33,665 nucleotides of DNA. Origin: an uncultured Mycoplasmatota bacterium (lineage in GTDB: Bacteria; Bacillota_I; Bacilli_A; RF39; UBA660). Location of the stretch: assembly GCA_947643405.1 (NCBI GenBank), contig CANRVY010000020.1, positions 1 through 33,665 of the forward strand, read 5' to 3'. Positions 82 through 33,665 of this stretch are shown piece by piece. Numbering within the stretch: the stretch's first letter is position 1; each line of letters opens with the position of its first letter. The notes beneath the pieces are model-generated. The model saw only the letters and a list, made by a program, of their open reading frames with translations. It did not search any database and was not told where the DNA came from. The position numbers were made by a program, and so were the translations under genes.

Positions 82-163
82 ATTAAAACATAACATGCAT
101 ATTTTTAACATCTATGATAACTATAATAATTTATTCAATGATTTTTTATATTCTACCACAAAA

Positions 164-194
164 AACCTTGCTTCTTATATCAAGAAACAAGGTT
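164..194 (-). terminator. Terminator of the split lipoprotein gene
   Basis: AACCTTG (164-170) pairs with CAAGGTT (188-194), with a second block TTCTT/AAGAA inside. On the minus strand the stem is followed by TTTTTTG. It sits about 20 bases after the minus-strand stop codon at 216-218. Confidence 0.75.
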
Positions 195-215
195 CAATTT
201 TCATAAAGTACTTTT

Positions 216-1204
216 TCAACGTGGACATAATTGGTACTGGTATCCACCATCTATATTTTCGCCAAACTCTGTTTGTGAATTGAGATGATCCCCACTATCA
301 TTACTTATAACACCTGATGGCACCAAACTTTCATATGTGTCCTTATCCTTATGTGTTAATTCAAATTCTTTTGTTCCATCACTATTATATTCAAAAGTTA
401 TATTCCATAAGTTTGTATTTCCAAACGTTTCAACAAAACAGTCCGTTTTTGTAATTACTATTCTGAATATTTCATCACTACCTCGATTGAGATCATTTGA
501 GGGTAGGACGCCCTCTTTTAAAGGCGCAATTACGTTAATGATTGAACAGTTCTGCAAACTTCTAATTAAAGTACCATTTAAATCAATATCAGAATAATAA
601 ATGTTTACATTTATTTTATTTCCTGTATCTACTTTCAATTCAGAAGGGGCATAATATAATGAAACAGTTCCAACATTTTTATGAAATACTAATTCTTCTA
701 CCTCTTGTGGCATTTCTTGACAATCAACAATTACCTCTTTGGCATTTAAATTCGGTAATAAAGAAATTGCTGATCCTATATTACCAATGCCAATTCTTGG
801 CAATTGCGTTCTAGGATTATTTGCCACAAAATCACTAAGACTTTCTAAATCTGAATCAGTAGAGAAAGTAATGCAACCATCTTTTTTTATCAGCTCTTTC
901 ATAACATTGCTAAAGTTTTTTAATGTACTATTTGCTAGTGTTATCTCATTCACTCTTTCACTAATTCCTTCTAAATCTACATTTTCACTTCCAGATAATT
1001 TTATTGCAACATTTTCAAAATTTTCTGGAATATTTAATTTTGAAAAATCAATTTGGCTTTTATAATTTACAAAATTTAATATTAAATTTTTATTTTCATC
1101 CTTTTTAAAAGCGATTAATTGATTAATTGCATCATAGAACTGAGTTTCTGTATAAGTCCCACTTTCTAAATTTGGTTCCTGATTACATAAACTAATTTTT
1201 TTTT
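216..1204 (-). CDS. Downstream (shifted-frame) part of the repeat lipoprotein
   Basis: This frame is open from the A9 tract (1204) down to the stop at 216, about 329 codons, although its first possible start (GTG, 953-951) is far inside. Translated from the A9 tract it runs KKISLCNQEP... and then contains SQIDFSKLNIPE, FYDAINQL and VDLEG. These match NQIDFSKIELPE, FYDLLNQL and VSLNG in the first domain of the gene immediately upstream. There is no ribosome-binding site in front of GTG 953, and no promoter or terminator between the two frames. I therefore read it as the C-terminal half of one secreted repeat protein, reached only if one A is added at the tract or the ribosome shifts by -1. It would form a second copy of a leucine-rich or beta-solenoid-like surface domain. 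Function is unknown. It could also be a simple decay product or a sequencing error. Confidence 0.7.
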
Positions 1205-2446
1205 ATTATTTCCATTTTGAAAATATAACACATCTAAATTCATAGTACTATCAGTTGCAATCTTCATTGTATCTTCAATTGATAATTTAGATACTTGAAT
1301 TCCCACTATATTTTGATTATCATCATAAATAAACTTCGCGTCTGTATTTTGGTCTACAACAATTTTAGGTTCTCTTTCTTTAGACAATTGTACTTCTTCC
1401 ACACCATCTACTGGATTTGAAATTACAATATAAGGCGCTATGCTGGTTGTACTATATAAAGGCATTTTAAAATCTATTAATTCAATTCCATCAAAATAAA
1501 CATTTGTTAAGGCACCTATTGCAATATTTGTATTTAATACTTCTTCCATAGATGCATTTTCACTTTTTGAAAGATGTAACCTTTGTGTATTTTCATTTAT
1601 ATAAAGTATGTTATGAGTTGAATTTCCAGAAATTTGAACCCATATATTAATTGCATTCACTTCAGAAATTGAATAAAAATCTTTCCCCTCAAGGGTGATT
1701 GCAAATGTATCAAAGAAAAGCTCATTCGATCTTAAAATTTCTTTAATTTCATTCATATCCCCTTGTTCAATTGCTACACTGCCCTTTTTTTGCCCTATTT
1801 CCCTAATAATCTCATAAGAATCTAATGTAGAACAATTTATTTTTAAATCTTCTGTTTTTGTAGTTAAACCATTTAAACTTACATTTTTAGAATGATGAAC
1901 TTCAACATAGATTCCTTCTGGTAATTCAATTTTACTAAAATCAATTTGGTTCGAATAATTATTTAACACAATATGAATTTCATCTGCTTGATATTTTTTA
2001 AACAATTGATTTAATAAATCATAAAAAGTTTCATCTTCTAAAGATTCACATTTTTTTCCTTCTAATGTCATTGTAATTTGATACTCAGAAGTCAAACGAT
2101 GTCCTCCAACCCCTGCTGAAGGTGATGGAAATCTATCATTTATTGGACAATTTATTGCATCTCTTTGTATCTCTAAATCTATATAATCTGTTGCTTTTTC
2201 TTTTAAGGCCTCCACAAAATCTGAAAATGTTTCTAATTGTTCTCCAATTGCATTTGCCTCTTCATAATCTCCTGTTATAATATCCTCGTTTTCAAATTCA
2301 GAAAGTATTATCACATTCTCTGATGTTGCCTCCTCTCCCACTCTTTGTTGGCATCCTGCCATTGTTAATGTTGCCATTAAACTAAATGGTATTAAAACTG
2401 CTGCTCCTAATCTTCTCACACCATTATAAATTCTAAAATTTTTCAT
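1166..2446 (-). CDS. Secreted lipoprotein with repeat domain (N-terminal frame)
   Basis: 426 aa. The N-terminus has basic residues (MKNFRIYNGVRR), a hydrophobic stretch (LGAAVLIPFSLMATLTMA) and a lipobox ending at Cys (TMAGC, about residue 32), so the product should be exported and lipid-anchored. The rest is Asn/Ile/Glu-rich with alternating short strands (NQIDFSKIELPEG, NVSLNGL), suggesting a leucine-rich-repeat or beta-solenoid surface domain. I recognise no enzyme motif. The reading frame ends shortly after a run of nine A residues (KKK codons) with a nine-residue tail, LVYVIRNQI. The -1 frame continues for some 329 more codons with a second copy of the same domain, so this ORF is probably the short form of a protein of about 740 residues. 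The start is well supported: AAAGGGGGAAG lies 6-8 bases upstream, behind a strong promoter. Confidence 0.8.
   Translation of the reverse strand: MKNFRIYNGVRRLGAAVLIPFSLMATLTMAGCQQRVGEEATSENVIILSEFENEDIITGDYEEANAIGEQLETFSDFVEALKEKATDYIDLEIQRDAINCPINDRFPSPSAGVGGHRLTSEYQITMTLEGKKCESLEDETFYDLLNQLFKKYQADEIHIVLNNYSNQIDFSKIELPEGIYVEVHHSKNVSLNGLTTKTEDLKINCSTLDSYEIIREIGQKKGSVAIEQGDMNEIKEILRSNELFFDTFAITLEGKDFYSISEVNAINIWVQISGNSTHNILYINENTQRLHLSKSENASMEEVLNTNIAIGALTNVYFDGIELIDFKMPLYSTTSIAPYIVISNPVDGVEEVQLSKEREPKIVVDQNTDAKFIYDDNQNIVGIQVSKLSIEDTMKIATDSTMNLDVLYFQNGNNKKKLVYVIRNQI
1196..1204 (-). repeat. A9 homopolymer at the frame junction
   Basis: Nine T on the plus strand (A9 in the mRNA). With nine A the frame closes nine codons later. 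With ten A the frame is KKKISLCNQEP and stays open to 216. With eight A a TAG follows at once. This is the right geometry for slippage-controlled expression. Confidence 0.8.
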
Positions 2447-2470: not shown

Positions 2471-2499
2471 ATTCTAGCATTATAAAAAAGTTTTGTCAA
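2471..2499 (-). promoter_or_regulatory. Sigma-A-type promoter of the lipoprotein gene
   Basis: On the minus strand: TTGACA (2499-2494), a 17-base spacer, then TAGAAT (2476-2471). Shine-Dalgarno GGGGGAAG follows before ATG 2446. A perfect -35 with ideal spacing predicts strong expression. Confidence 0.75.
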
Positions 2500-5196: not shown

Positions 5197-5216
5197 AAAT
5201 GTCAAACTTGACATTT
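5197..5216 (-). terminator. Terminator of the GNAT gene
   Basis: A perfect 9-bp stem, AAATGTCAA with TTGACATTT, has a 2-base loop and is followed on the minus strand by TTTTTTC. It begins at the stop codon of the acetyltransferase gene. Confidence 0.75.
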
Positions 5217-5652
5217 ATAACTCTTTTACTAAATAAATCTCGTTGTTTAAAATATTCTCTTGTTCTTCTATTCTTGTAAAATTCCAACCATTTTTTACTA
5301 AATAAGAAAGCATATCTCGCTTATCATTTCTAGTTTTTATAGTTACCTTTTGATAACCTCCTTTTTTGCTCCATTCAAAGAAATAATCAAACATTTTTGT
5401 TAAAGCACCAATTCTTCTGTAACGATAATCCACCCCTGCTAACCAACAATAAAAGCTTCCATTTTCTTCTTTTTCATATCCAATCATATATCCAATAGGT
5501 TCTTGATTAAAATAAGCAGCAATCACTAGATGTTTCTCATTCTGATACCTTTCTAGGAAAAAAGATGCTGGAGCATTTGGGTCATCAAATTCTACAATAT
5601 TGGGATGGACTTTCAAAATATCTTTTATATCTGTTTCTTCCACCGTTATCAT
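5215..5652 (-). CDS. GNAT-family N-acetyltransferase
   Basis: About 145 aa, the usual GNAT length. The central AGVDYRYRRIGALTKMF matches the acetyl-CoA pyrophosphate-binding motif A (V-x-x-x-x-R-x-x-G-x-G/A). It is preceded by the two strands VIAAYFNQEPIGYMIGY and followed by VTIKTRNDKRDMLSYLVKNGW, which resembles motif B. It should transfer an acetyl group to an amine; the acceptor is unknown. I start it at ATG 5652, which has GAGGTG 6 bases upstream. The ATG at 5670 overlaps a TATAAT (5674-5669) that looks like the -10, so it would not be transcribed from that promoter. Confidence 0.75.
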   Translation of the reverse strand: MITVEETDIKDILKVHPNIVEFDDPNAPASFFLERYQNEKHLVIAAYFNQEPIGYMIGYEKEENGSFYCWLAGVDYRYRRIGALTKMFDYFFEWSKKGGYQKVTIKTRNDKRDMLSYLVKNGWNFTRIEEQENILNNEIYLVKEL

Positions 5653-5687
5653 AATACACCTCATGTTCATTATAGCACACTTTTTTG

Positions 5688-11877: not shown

Positions 11878-13836
<1,959 letters not shown>

Positions 13837-13900
13837 GCTTTATGTAATTTTGTTTTATTACGAAGTTTTAAAACCATATGGAATAAAGTAAAACGGATTC

Positions 13901-13987
13901 TAAGGTGTCCTTAGCCCACGAGGGCATTTTGCTATACTTGGCAAAATCCCTAGGGGGTTAAGTATTTTGTCAAAGCCAAAATATAGC
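13901..13987 (+). other. Candidate origin of transfer (oriT)
   Basis: A run of small perfect inverted repeats in a GC-richer patch of the 200-bp gap before the relaxase: TAAGG-TGT-CCTTA (13901-13913), GCCC-ACGA-GGGC (13914-13925), ATTTTGC-8 nt-GCAAAAT (13926-13947) and CCCTAGGG (13948-13955). GCCAAAATATAGC (13975-13987) is an imperfect inverted copy of GCTATACTTGGC (13931-13942). MobV relaxases nick at such hairpins immediately upstream of their own gene. The nick site itself is not identified. Confidence 0.6.
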
Positions 13988-14042
13988 TAAAAAATCACCA
14001 TTAAAACAACTATAAAAATATAAAAATAAAGGAGTGTGATTT

Positions 14043-15422
14043 ATTATACAATTAGCATATTCATTTCATTTAGGTAGTGATAAGAATAAGAAAAATAGTT
14101 CTAGAACTAGTGCAAAATCTAATGTAAGTGGTACAACATCTAAAAGTAATAATGCAATACAAAATTCAGCAGGATTAACTAAGTGTGATAACCATAATTA
14201 CAGAAAATATGATGACAGAGAGTATGACATCGAAATTATTAGAGGTAGTTCTTCTCTTGTAGATGATGTGAAGAAGTTATATAGAGATGAGTTTGATGAG
14301 GCAAAGGAAGAATACAATGCTAAACAAACAAGAGAAAATAGGAAAATTAACGACTACTTTACTCATATAAGTAACAATTCTAAAAGTGATCTAGCTTGTG
14401 AGATTATTATAGAACTTGGAGATAAAAAGTATTGGGATACAAAGGATATAAAGTTTAAAAAACGAATGACAAATGTGTTTAAACAACAAGTTATTGATTT
14501 AGAAACTATACTACCTACTTTTAAAATAGCTTCAGCCATTATCCATTATGATGAAACAAGCCCACATCTTCATATTGTAGGAGTTCCCATTAAAATCGGT
14601 GGTAAAAATGGTATGAAAAAACAAGTTGGAAAAAGTGATGTTTTTACCAAAGAATCACTTCGTAAATTGCAAGATAAAATGAGAGTATTATGTATTGAGT
14701 CGTTCAATAAAGAATATGGACTTACTAACTCATTAAAAGGAAAGAAAAAAGGCAGAAATCGTGATTATCATATAACTGAAATGGACGACTATATGGAAAT
14801 GAAAGAACACCTAGAAAAAAATCAAGAACGACTAGAAATAGCCAATAAAAAAGCATTAGAACTTGATAATCATACCAAAGAAGTAAAAGAAATTATAACT
14901 GATTTAAAAACAACTTTAACTTCAAAAGAAAAATATGTTTTAAAACAAGAAGATAAAGATAAATTAGTATCTTATATTGATTCAGTTAGTAAAACAAATG
15001 ATGAATATAAGAAAATCAAAACTTTATCTGTAACTCTTAACAATGTAGATATAGAAATAAGGGAAAATCATGATAAAATCAAGACACTAACTGAAAATAA
15101 TAAAGCACTTACTTTAAGAGTAGAAAATTTAACTAAGAATATCAGTAGCAAAGATAAAGAAATAGAAGAATTAAAAGAAGAAAATCATTCATTAAAAAAT
15201 ACTCTAGAATTTTGGAAAGATAAGTTTTTACGAGTTATGTCTTTAATCAAAGATAAATTATTTGGTAAGGAAAAAGAACGAGAAAACTACTTTGATGTAT
15301 CAAAAGATTTATACAAAAAAGGCATTATTAAGGAAGATACTTTTAATGACTTAAATGATAAATATAATTTTAGCAAAGAACATGATAATAAGGGAAAAGA
15401 TGATTTTGAGATAGAAATTTAA
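14043..15422 (+). CDS. MobV/Mob_Pre-family relaxase (mobilization protein)
   Basis: About 459 aa if read from 14043. The metal-binding three-His motif is IHYDETSPHLHI (H-x-D-E-x-x-P-H-x-H), and EYNAKQ, DYFTHIS, GVPIK and the coiled-coil C-terminal half are as in plasmid recombination/mobilization proteins. It would nick the element at oriT and pilot the strand. The only standard-type start codons are internal (for example GTG 14268), but the same frame is open further upstream and encodes the conserved beginning QLAYSFHLGSDKNKK and REYDIEIIRGSSSL. AAAGGAG (14028-14034) stands 8 bases before ATT 14043 (ATA follows at 14046), and TGA closes the frame at 14037. So the gene either uses a rare ATT/ATA start or has a mutated ATG. 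A long coiled coil covers about residues 250-400. Confidence 0.8.
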   Translation: MIQLAYSFHLGSDKNKKNSSRTSAKSNVSGTTSKSNNAIQNSAGLTKCDNHNYRKYDDREYDIEIIRGSSSLVDDVKKLYRDEFDEAKEEYNAKQTRENRKINDYFTHISNNSKSDLACEIIIELGDKKYWDTKDIKFKKRMTNVFKQQVIDLETILPTFKIASAIIHYDETSPHLHIVGVPIKIGGKNGMKKQVGKSDVFTKESLRKLQDKMRVLCIESFNKEYGLTNSLKGKKKGRNRDYHITEMDDYMEMKEHLEKNQERLEIANKKALELDNHTKEVKEIITDLKTTLTSKEKYVLKQEDKDKLVSYIDSVSKTNDEYKKIKTLSVTLNNVDIEIRENHDKIKTLTENNKALTLRVENLTKNISSKDKEIEELKEENHSLKNTLEFWKDKFLRVMSLIKDKLFGKEKERENYFDVSKDLYKKGIIKEDTFNDLNDKYNFSKEHDNKGKDDFEIEI

Positions 15423-30127: not shown

Positions 30128-31756
30128 CTATTTAGTTAATATATACGGATCATTTTCTGTTCCTGTTCCACTTTTTATTTTTACACTAGAATTTAGATAT
30201 ATTACTGGACGTGCACTAAAGCTAGTCTGGGCCACAGAAACATCATTGATATATCCGTCCACAAATACAGTCCACACAGTAGCCACAGTGTTGATATTTG
30301 GAATGATCGTCCATTGGTAGTGTGAACTAGTAAATAACCAGTTATCATTCTTACATGTTGGGTTATTATACAAATTTAAGTTATCTGTACAACTACTATC
30401 TGAACTTGCATATCCATAATCAGCTACTGTCATCAATCCCACTTTTCCTGTCCATGTCTTACTTGTTTCATTATTATAAAAATTACTTAATGTATAATTT
30501 GATGATATTCCTCCAATCCCCCAATTATGATTCTGATCTACCATTGCTTGTGCTGTTGCATTTAATGATTCCCAGTATGCTGTATTTAATGTTGTATTTA
30601 ATGCTGATGGCTTTGCCCATTTATTACTACTATTACTACCACTTGTATCCCAGACTATTCCTGTTAGATATTGGCTTCCTTCTGCTGTATAACTTCCCCA
30701 ATATATCAATTTCATTTGTCCATTAAATACTCCTATAATTCTATATGCTTCTCCATTAAATGTTACAAAGTTATTTGGATTTGCTCCTTGATATCTATAT
30801 CCATTACCTACATTTGGTAAATTATCATTTTCAGCAAGATCACTTCCACTTGTTCCCTCTGATTCAACAGTTACCTTTGGACTTATGGTTGCTGTTTTCC
30901 CATTCTTTCCTGTTGCTGTACATGTTAATGTATAACTTCCTAGTGCTAATGTATTTAAGTTTGTTACTACTGTATCTCCATTCTTACAAGTAACATTTCC
31001 TCCCATTCCTCCGAATGTTACATTATATAATGTATCTACTTCTACACTTGTTTTCTCTGTCATACTATATGCTTCATTTATATATGGACTTGTTATCGTT
31101 GGTATTGTTGCATCTATTTTAAATGTTCTTGTTAATGATGCGATTTCTTTATTCTCATATGTCATTCTGCATTTTACACTGTTTTCCCCTTCTTTTAGCT
31201 CAGAAGTATTTGTTACTTCTCTATTTTCATCTGATAAATTAATACATGTCACTATTCCTTTTTGATTTCTAATATTATAATAACTTCCTGGTATCGCACT
31301 ATCCAATCCTGATTCTATATAACTTAGTTTTATTCCTTCTTCTATCATTGGAGACTCAATTTTACATGTTTCTTTATTGTAATTTATAATTTCTATACTT
31401 TCTTTGTCTTCCCTTTTTATTGCACACCATTTTTCATTATAGATAGACATTTCTATTTTACCATTACTTTTTACAATAATGGTTCCGCCTTTTGGTCTAG
31501 TGCCCTTATATTTTAATTCATTTTCTTCTTCCTCATATGAAAATACTTTATCCCCAAGTTCTTTATTGTCTATAATGTTTTCTACATAATATAATCTTGC
31601 ACTTTCCATAATCCCATATGCACTATTTTGAAATGCACTCTTTCTTGCTTTCTCTATGATATTTAATATTAATGGAACTGATATCAGCGCTATAATAGTT
31701 AGAATGATAATAACTGCTAGCAATTCTATTAATGTAAATCCTTTTTCTTTCTTCAT
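30128..31756 (-). CDS. Prepilin-like surface protein with Ig-like and lectin-like domains
   Basis: 542 aa. The N-terminus MKKEKGFTLIELLAVIIILTIIAL is a type IV prepilin leader with cleavage after Gly and Glu at position 5 of the mature protein. It would be processed by a prepilin peptidase and built into a pilus, or kept as a pseudopilin. About residues 145-300 hold Cys-containing Ig-like domains (KCRMTYENKEIASLTRTF, CKNGDTVVTNLNTLALGSYTLTC). Residues 310-542 form a lectin/FGE-like domain (YRYQGANPNNFVTF, AYRIIGVFNGQMKLIYWG, WTGKVGLMTVADYGYAS, WLFTSSHYQWTI, RPVIYLNSSVKI). The end of this domain is coded by a GC-rich variable stretch. AGAAGGTGA lies 5 bases before ATG. It is probably an adhesive minor pilin. 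No pilus assembly gene is in the window. Confidence 0.85.
   Translation of the reverse strand: MKKEKGFTLIELLAVIIILTIIALISVPLILNIIEKARKSAFQNSAYGIMESARLYYVENIIDNKELGDKVFSYEEEENELKYKGTRPKGGTIIVKSNGKIEMSIYNEKWCAIKREDKESIEIINYNKETCKIESPMIEEGIKLSYIESGLDSAIPGSYYNIRNQKGIVTCINLSDENREVTNTSELKEGENSVKCRMTYENKEIASLTRTFKIDATIPTITSPYINEAYSMTEKTSVEVDTLYNVTFGGMGGNVTCKNGDTVVTNLNTLALGSYTLTCTATGKNGKTATISPKVTVESEGTSGSDLAENDNLPNVGNGYRYQGANPNNFVTFNGEAYRIIGVFNGQMKLIYWGSYTAEGSQYLTGIVWDTSGSNSSNKWAKPSALNTTLNTAYWESLNATAQAMVDQNHNWGIGGISSNYTLSNFYNNETSKTWTGKVGLMTVADYGYASSDSSCTDNLNLYNNPTCKNDNWLFTSSHYQWTIIPNINTVATVWTVFVDGYINDVSVAQTSFSARPVIYLNSSVKIKSGTGTENDPYILTK
30204..30316 (-). repeat. GC-rich hypervariable cassette in the prepilin-like gene
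   Basis: Bounded by the shared CAATGG and CGTCCAGT ends. About 43% GC (my count, 120 bases) against roughly 25% just outside. The encoded residues (VWTVFVDGYINDVSVAQTS) differ almost completely from the corresponding parts of the neighbouring gene, while both borders are kept. Confidence 0.6.
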
Positions 31757-31812
31757 TTTTTCACCTTCTGATTTTTCTAGTATATAAATTAGTAGAAACC
31801 ATTAATAAACAA

Positions 31813-31847
31813 GACAATATCTATATTCAAAGTTTCTTGATATTGTC
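31813..31847. terminator. Stem-loop between the two pilin-like genes
   Basis: GACAATATC (31813-31821) pairs with GATATTGTC (31839-31847), with a 17-base loop and T-rich sequence on both sides. It lies about 55 bases upstream of the complete gene and beyond the stop of the previous one. Confidence 0.55.
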
Positions 31848-31884
31848 CTTATTTATTTTATATAAACTTATATTAATTAAATTT

Positions 31885-31900
31885 ATAACTATTTAATTAC
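31885..31900. promoter_or_regulatory. 16-bp palindromic motif, site 4
   Basis: ATAACTATTTAATTAC, one base away from the consensus in its first position. It lies in the gap between the two pilin-like genes, about 130 bases upstream of ATG 31756. Confidence 0.4.
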
Positions 31901-32013
31901 TCAATTATAGTTAACAAAACATTTTAGTTGAACAGTATCACAGTGAGATAAATACCGCCCTATTGTTTTATATTTTAAAATCTTTTTGGTTTAGTCTTTG
32001 TTGTTATAATCTC

Positions 32014-33665
32014 TTATTTACTCAAGATATATGGATTACTTTCGGTTCCTGTTCCACCTGTTATTTTTACACTAGAATCTAGATATACGACTGGGCGCAC
32101 CCCACGAGTGTTGCTCGCGCTGGCGTTCGTGACATACACACTCGTATGCACACGCCACACGTAAGCCGAGTTGTCGCTATCAGGAGTGATTGACCATTGT
32201 TGATTTGCATATCCTATCCAGTTATTACTCATACATGCATTATTCGTACTTGTCATTACTGTTGATGTTGTACATCCGCTTCCTGCATATCCAAAGTCTA
32301 CCATACTCATTAATCCTACATATCCTGTTGTACTATTACTTCTCTCTCCATCTATAAATGATTGTAAATTATATGTCGTAGTGTTATTGGCTCCTGTATA
32401 CCATGTTGCATTTATAATATATCCTCTATGCGTTGCGTCTATATATGTATTATTACTATAGAATGATGATCCATTTAATTCTGTTTTTAAATCCGCTGGT
32501 CTTCCCCAGTTGTTACTTCCATATGTTCCTCCTGATGTATCCCATCTTTTTCCTGTACTATAGTAATAATTTGTCATTATCTTCATTCGCCCATTACTAT
32601 CTATACCAATAATTCTCCATTTATGATTGGCATCACAACTTCCTGGACTCGTTATGCTTGAAGATCCAAAGCATACCCAGTTATTTGGACTTTCTCCTCT
32701 ATACCGATACATATCTGCTAATAATGGAAGATTGTTATCAATTGCTAATTTATCTCCTTCTGTTGGGGTATATGATAATGTATATGGTGAACTTGCAGTT
32801 CCACTTCCTCCTGTTATCTTTGTATTATATTTTAAATATAGAACTGGACGCACCCCAAAAGAACTGTCAATATTGCTTGTGTGGTTAAAACTGATAAATC
32901 CGTTCTTATGCACGAAGTACACATGACCCGGATCGCCAGTATGGCCAGTGATTGTCCATTGGTGGTATGAACTCGTAAATAACCAGTTGTTATCTTTACA
33001 TGCCGTCGAACTAAACATATTTAAACTATCTGTACAACTACTACTTGTACTTGCATATCCATAATCAGCAGGAGTCATCAATCCCACTTTTCCAGTCCAC
33101 TTCCCATTATTTTCAGCCGCTTGGAATTGACTTCTTGTAAACCCAGAACTTATTCCTCCTATACTCCATACAAGACTTTGGTCTATCATTCCTTGCGCAG
33201 TTGAATTTAATGAATTCCAATATGTACTATTTAATGTTGTATTTAATGTTGTTGGGCTTGACCAGTTATTGCGACCGCTTGTATCCCATGCTACATTAGT
33301 TAAATATTGACTTCCTGCTGCTGTATAATCTCCCCAATATATTAGTTTCATTTGACCACCAAATATTCCTATTATTCTGTATGCTCCTCCATTAAATGTA
33401 ACAAAATTATTTGGATTTGCTCCTTGATATCTATATCCTCCTCCAACATTTGGTAAATTATCTTTATTTGCTAAATCGCTTCCACTAATTCCAGCTGCTT
33501 TCACTGTCACTTTAGGTTTCACACTCGCTGCCTTCCCATTCTTCCCAGTTGCTGTACATGTTAATGTATGAGTTCCTACTGCTAATGTATTGAGGTTTGT
33601 TACTGTTGTTGTTCCATTCTTACAAACTACTGTTCCTCCCATTCCTCCAAATGTCGCTTTATATA
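32014..33665 (-). CDS. Surface protein with two lectin-like domains (5' end beyond the window)
   Basis: At least 550 residues, open to the right edge of the window; the ATG at 33642 is internal, since YIKATFGGM continues the alignment with the neighbour. It contains the same Ig-like block (VVCKNGTTTVTNLNTLAVGTHTLTC) and two lectin/FGE-like domains: YRYQGANPNNFVTF ... YHQWTITGH ... VRPVLYLK, then YRYRGESPNNWVCF ... NQQWSITPD ... VRPVVYLD. It is a tandem paralog of 30128-31756, which has one such domain. A prepilin leader at its missing N-terminus is likely but not visible. Both lectin domains carry a GC-rich variable stretch near their ends. It is probably a pilus-associated adhesin. Confidence 0.82.
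   Translation of the reverse strand, partial: YKATFGGMGGTVVCKNGTTTVTNLNTLAVGTHTLTCTATGKNGKAASVKPKVTVKAAGISGSDLANKDNLPNVGGGYRYQGANPNNFVTFNGGAYRIIGIFGGQMKLIYWGDYTAAGSQYLTNVAWDTSGRNNWSSPTTLNTTLNSTYWNSLNSTAQGMIDQSLVWSIGGISSGFTRSQFQAAENNGKWTGKVGLMTPADYGYASTSSSCTDSLNMFSSTACKDNNWLFTSSYHQWTITGHTGDPGHVYFVHKNGFISFNHTSNIDSSFGVRPVLYLKYNTKITGGSGTASSPYTLSYTPTEGDKLAIDNNLPLLADMYRYRGESPNNWVCFGSSSITSPGSCDANHKWRIIGIDSNGRMKIMTNYYYSTGKRWDTSGGTYGSNNWGRPADLKTELNGSSFYSNNTYIDATHRGYIINATWYTGANNTTTYNLQSFIDGERSNSTTGYVGLMSMVDFGYAGSGCTTSTVMTSTNNACMSNNWIGYANQQWSITPDSDNSAYVWRVHTSVYVTNASASNTRGVRPVVYLDSSVKITGGTGTESNPYILSK
32091..32200 (-). repeat. GC-rich hypervariable cassette, second lectin domain
   Basis: 57% GC by hand count over 110 bases, in a gene of about one-third GC. 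Codons end mostly in C, G or T (GTG, ACG, GCC, AGC, AAC), unlike the A/T-ending codons on either side. It encodes VWRVHTSVYVTNASASNTR. The ends are CAATGGTCAATCACT and GGGGTGCGCCCAGT. Confidence 0.65.
32843..32961 (-). repeat. GC-rich hypervariable cassette, first lectin domain
   Basis: About 45% GC over 120 bases. It encodes VYFVHKNGFISFNHTSNIDSS, between CAATGGACAATCACT and GGGGTGCGTCCAGT. Its borders match those of the other two cassettes, its interior does not. Confidence 0.6.

Follow-up and report, generated by a model that had tools for sequence, protein, structure and literature searches.

The predicted lipoprotein gene at positions 2446 to 216 (minus strand) is read in two parts that lie in different frames, and these parts are well supported as pieces of a single gene that is interrupted at a tract prone to slippage, a run of nine adenines (A9). 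We favour, with a probability of about 0.45, the reading that a two-repeat lipoprotein gene is out of frame at the A9 and that its long form would derive from slipped transcripts. The window, that is, the whole stretch of DNA that was analysed (33,665 nucleotides), is the entire contig C20 of a draft genome of an uncultured Mycoplasmatota bacterium (1.55 Mb, 57 contigs).

A lipoprotein gene in two frames

The first part of the gene, ORF1 (1166..2446, minus strand, from ORF reading), encodes 426 amino acids. Upstream lies a promoter-like site (2471..2499, minus strand; a consensus match only) of the form TTGACA-17-TAGAAT with an extended -10 (TG), which has 11 of 12 matches and the top score within 4 kb in a pattern scan, and the start AAAGGGGGAAGACA-ATG provides a good ribosome site. 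By inspection, the N-terminus consists of a signal peptide and a MAGC lipobox with the cysteine at position 32 (Cys32); in the orthologous N-terminus of the congener G004 the lipobox is kept as LSSC and the cysteine is conserved. The ORF1 product is a predicted extracellular or surface lipoprotein. The frame break is the A9 tract itself (1196..1204, minus strand, from sequence reading), which is read in the 0-frame as AAT AAA AAA AAA TTA and contains A_AAA_AAA. After the tract, nine 0-frame codons are followed by the TAG that ends ORF1. An initial annotation, made from the letters of the window, had reported a lipobox gene that stops nine codons past an A9, and its coordinates, tract length and frames agree with ours.

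The continuation of ORF1 is found in the -1 frame (216..1202, minus strand), which is recognised as an open frame and by its repeat. It is bounded by TAA TAA immediately 5' of the tract and by TGA at 216, and we counted 328 open codons between tract and stop, in line with the initial annotation of this frame as open down to 216. In 2000 base-shuffled versions of the region no open run was longer than 125 codons, compared to 328 in the real sequence. The coding log-odds per codon are 0.23 for the -1 frame and 0.31 for its first 82 codons, and range from 0.10 to 0.37 for the other genes of the window; both other frames of the region score negative. No start codon occurs in about the first 82 codons of the -1 frame. 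The earliest possible start of the second part is a GTG at 953, which is located within the repeat and is preceded, at a distance of about 12 nt, by a weak AAGGA; initiation at this weak site is conceivable. The earlier statement that the second part has no start signal of its own therefore holds for its early portion and is nearly, not strictly, correct for the whole. A single fused reading across the junction results in 743 amino acids, close to the 740 residues given before. A terminator-like hairpin with a T-rich tail (163..195, minus strand; pattern match only) follows 20 nt past the second stop, and a pattern scan of the minus strand yielded no such hairpin between the two parts.

Both parts share a repeat domain, as detected by BLASTP and profile comparison. 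Copy 1 (1724..2089, minus strand) corresponds to about residues 120-241 of ORF1, and copy 2 (816..1202, minus strand) begins right at the A9 tract. In the BLASTP alignment, residues about 138-241 of ORF1 match residues 22-129 of the -1 frame with 29% identity (E = 5e-12), and hhalign assigns a probability of 95 to the comparison of both copies. The C-terminal halves of the two parts are no more alike than shuffled sequences. The detectable duplication is limited to a segment of about 108 residues; the initial annotation had described the -1 frame as encoding a second copy of the upstream domain. In AlphaFold models computed from two-row alignments (mean pLDDT 52 and 56), which are of low confidence and serve as illustration only, the A9 is located within a strand-turn-strand region just 5' of repeat 2.

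The shared repeat, the coding statistics, the single promoter and terminator matches and the lack of an early start of part two together argue for one gene in two frames. Two features expected of transcriptional slippage are present at the junction: a run of at least 9 A at the point of the frame change, and coding sequence that continues beyond it in another frame, in a second part without a clear start of its own. According to a neutral decay estimate, a divergence of about 1.3% would suffice for half of such 328-codon frames to acquire a stop, and one of about 6% for 95% of them. The lack of any stop in 328 codons therefore suggests that the -1 frame is still in use or owes its break to a very recent event; for an unexpressed second part, the same estimate implies a recent break.

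Proposed transcriptional slippage at the A9 tract

In the favoured reading, the single gene (2446-216, minus strand) would encode a protein of about 743 residues with two repeats, the second of which is set one frame off by the A9. Normal transcripts would give rise to a 426-residue one-repeat form ending in KKKLVYVIRNQI. Backward slippage of RNA polymerase on the A9 would add one A to a minority of transcripts, and this extra A would restore the frame and yield the two-repeat long form. The ability of long A tracts to induce RNA polymerase slippage, already noted in the initial annotation, is known. In E. coli and Buchnera, single-A insertions by RNA polymerase become exponentially more frequent as the run gets longer (PMC5574713), about half of the product of the A9 in Thermus dnaX is frame-shifted (PMC1088944), and 12-50% of the transcripts are corrected in endosymbionts whose genes are interrupted at long poly(A) runs (PMC5009743). 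By analogy, the lipoprotein A9 should yield some A10 mRNA and hence some long form.

The lipoprotein gene shares several properties with such cases of A9 slippage (Thermus dnaX, IS elements, Buchnera and Blochmannia), namely an intragenic A9, coding sequence in both frames, AT-rich DNA and a frame that is restored by one extra A. It differs from them in that its product is predicted to be an extracellular lipoprotein, in which one domain is duplicated, and in that the genomes searched gave no homologue of its tract. We infer that the A9 is probably the true genomic state, that slippage would occur on it in this organism, and that useful amounts of the long form may be produced, or its production regulated. 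It is plausible that the cell produces a short as well as a long form, since slippage of RNA polymerase on A9 tracts is known from bacteria and another A9 split of this genome recurs in relatives (see below). Of the interpretation put forward initially, the split of one gene at a slippage-prone tract is upheld, whereas the presence of both forms in the cell is kept as plausible. The split may plausibly be a new case of a known effect. If the A9 is real and slipping, the locus would offer a clean natural example of a short and a long surface lipoprotein from one gene in an uncultured AT-rich lineage, as well as a warning that automatic annotation labels such genes as truncated.

Long A tracts in the genome

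A pattern search of the genome located 64 tracts of exactly nine A and 13 that are longer; all were read in stretches. About 22 long tracts are intragenic, and about 20 tracts of at least 9 A, well within genes, stay in frame. That most such tracts in the genes of this genome simply stay in frame counts against slippage. Only two true splits were found: the lipoprotein A9 and a tract at C9:43912 in the gene downstream of mutS. Three further candidates were rejected. Two of them, L063 and L067, resemble overlapping genes of neighbours, with an ATG on the A9 or adjacent to it; the third, L065, has no coding support. The same census of the congener G001 resulted in one true split, located in the orthologue of the mutS-adjacent gene. 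A set of several contingency loci was not found in the genome, as the tracts of at least 9 A include one true split besides the lipoprotein gene; with only 2 of about 22 long intragenic tracts off frame, the genome appears to have no family of contingency loci. Several loci per genome are common, albeit not obligatory, for homopolymer phase-variable surface proteins.

A second split gene beside mutS

The second A9-split gene lies at about 42468-44302 on contig C9 of this genome (G000; L085 1469-3303) and is split at C9:43912 in the same -1 sense. We compared its orthologues in five congeners. In G001 an A9 is out of frame and the tail carries a further indel; in G004 an A10 is out of frame with an intact tail; in G003 an A10 is in frame within a single 605-codon ORF; and in G002 and G005 the tail is lost. 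Three species thus have an A9-A10 that breaks the frame at this junction, and a fourth has one that keeps it; neither in this genome nor in G004 does the tail contain a stop. A rough estimate of dN/dS between this genome and G001 gives 0.71 and 0.21 for the two parts of the tail and 0.11 for the upstream part.

The recurrence of the split across species, together with the census, argues that homopolymer frame breaks with open continuations are real in the genus rather than produced by a single assembly. The comparison likewise indicates that such breaks are unstable over species time, i.e. evolutionarily volatile, and the pattern at this locus resembles conserved slippage no more than it does drift and decay. 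A broader proposal, that the genus tolerates or uses poly-A slippage for decoding, with the lipoprotein A9 kept for a set ratio of one- to two-repeat forms and the mutS-adjacent gene treated alike in several species, is quite unlikely. With six species available for comparison, the fate of homopolymer frame breaks can be traced at this locus, from gain to tolerance and to loss of the tail.

Alternative explanations

A first alternative is phase variation at the level of DNA, with replication slippage giving rise to a mixture of A9 and A10 cells, an assembly that reports the A9 majority, and a switch between one- and two-repeat lipoproteins. We consider it unlikely. A surface lipoprotein whose ORF contains a homopolymer and whose off-frame continuation is intact is the usual picture of such genes, and tract length does vary between species at the mutS-adjacent locus. 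Mismatch repair normally stabilises tracts of this kind, and a mutL with all domains is encoded in the window, while mutS, with at least its C-terminal domain, is found on contig C9. Replication slippage, which had been proposed initially alongside slippage of the polymerase, is therefore possible, but a high rate is less likely given an apparently intact mutL and the presence of a mutS gene (C-terminal domain). The small share of off-frame tracts (2 of about 22) also speaks against this alternative. A precedent is the poly-A in the p78 lipoprotein gene of Mycoplasma fermentans, as cited in PMC3711429, which likewise combines a poly-A within a lipoprotein ORF with an open continuation. Compared to the phase-variable type as described there, the short form of our gene keeps a whole repeat and is not an off state, and mismatch repair genes are present in this genome.

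An error of consensus or assembly, in which the real tract is A10 and the gene an intact 743-codon ORF, is also doubtful. The gene is located on a single draft contig, 216 bases from its end, the junction is covered by one genome only, and part two looks fully intact, all of which would fit such an error. About 20 other intragenic A9-A10 tracts in the same assembly are read through correctly, which argues against a general weakness of this assembly at homopolymers, and the mutS-adjacent split recurs in independent assemblies. Should the tract prove to be A10, the result would be a correction to a single assembly.

A recent frameshift mutation would imply a fixed A9, the short form as the sole product and repeat 2 as a fresh pseudogene. 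Loss or damage of the tail at the mutS-adjacent locus in G001, G002 and G005 is in line with such an event, and in a break younger than about 1-6% divergence a second lesion is not yet expected. We nonetheless regard it as improbable: the 328 codons show zero decay, and an A9 is expected to leak some long form anyway through polymerase slippage. Programmed -1 ribosomal frameshifting is very improbable, as the 0-frame AAA AAA AAA does hold the canonical slippery heptamer A_AAA_AAA in the right phase for -1, like E. coli-type dnaX, but unlike dnaX the junction has neither a hairpin nor a clear internal Shine-Dalgarno stimulator (downstream RNA without stable structure, fold z = -0.25; upstream a weak GGA only).

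Relatives and genomic context

A homologue of the junction was not found by protein search in 60 relatives and 386 family genomes, nor in two scans of genome_contigs, and a two-row profile gave no significant match in 385 order genomes; its matches at E-values from 1e-4 to 1e-2 are at chance level over 385 genomes. The exact junction DNA has no match in viral_contigs. The lipoprotein has no match in Pfam, NCBIfam or PDB sequences, and a fold search with the low-pLDDT models gave no significant hit, the best being internalin LRR chains (E = 0.05). Congener G004 encodes the first 35 residues of the lipoprotein with 54% identity, beside the same neighbour gene, and its contig ends there. At the equivalent place in G001 the lipoprotein gene is absent, and a membrane-transporter-like gene is found instead on the opposite strand. 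By these searches the lipoprotein appears to be an orphan apart from the N-terminal stub in one congener. We note that the G004 contig stops less than 200 bases past the orthologous lipoprotein start (L010 1-190) and that the contig of the window ends 216 bases after the stop; given these contig ends, assembly around the gene may be difficult.

Several other features of the window were observed. A large serine recombinase (11878-15422) with Resolvase and Recombinase domains and a long C-terminal extension adjoins a Mob_Pre relaxase, and together they probably constitute an integrated mobilisable element or its remnant. Two adjacent surface-type proteins with similar-looking C-terminal repeats are encoded at 30128-33642, one with an N-terminal methylation (pilin-like) motif and the other, at the contig end, with a match to DUF6273. 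A GNAT-like gene is intact in the window (5215-5670) and appears split into two frames in G001 (L009 9394-9884).
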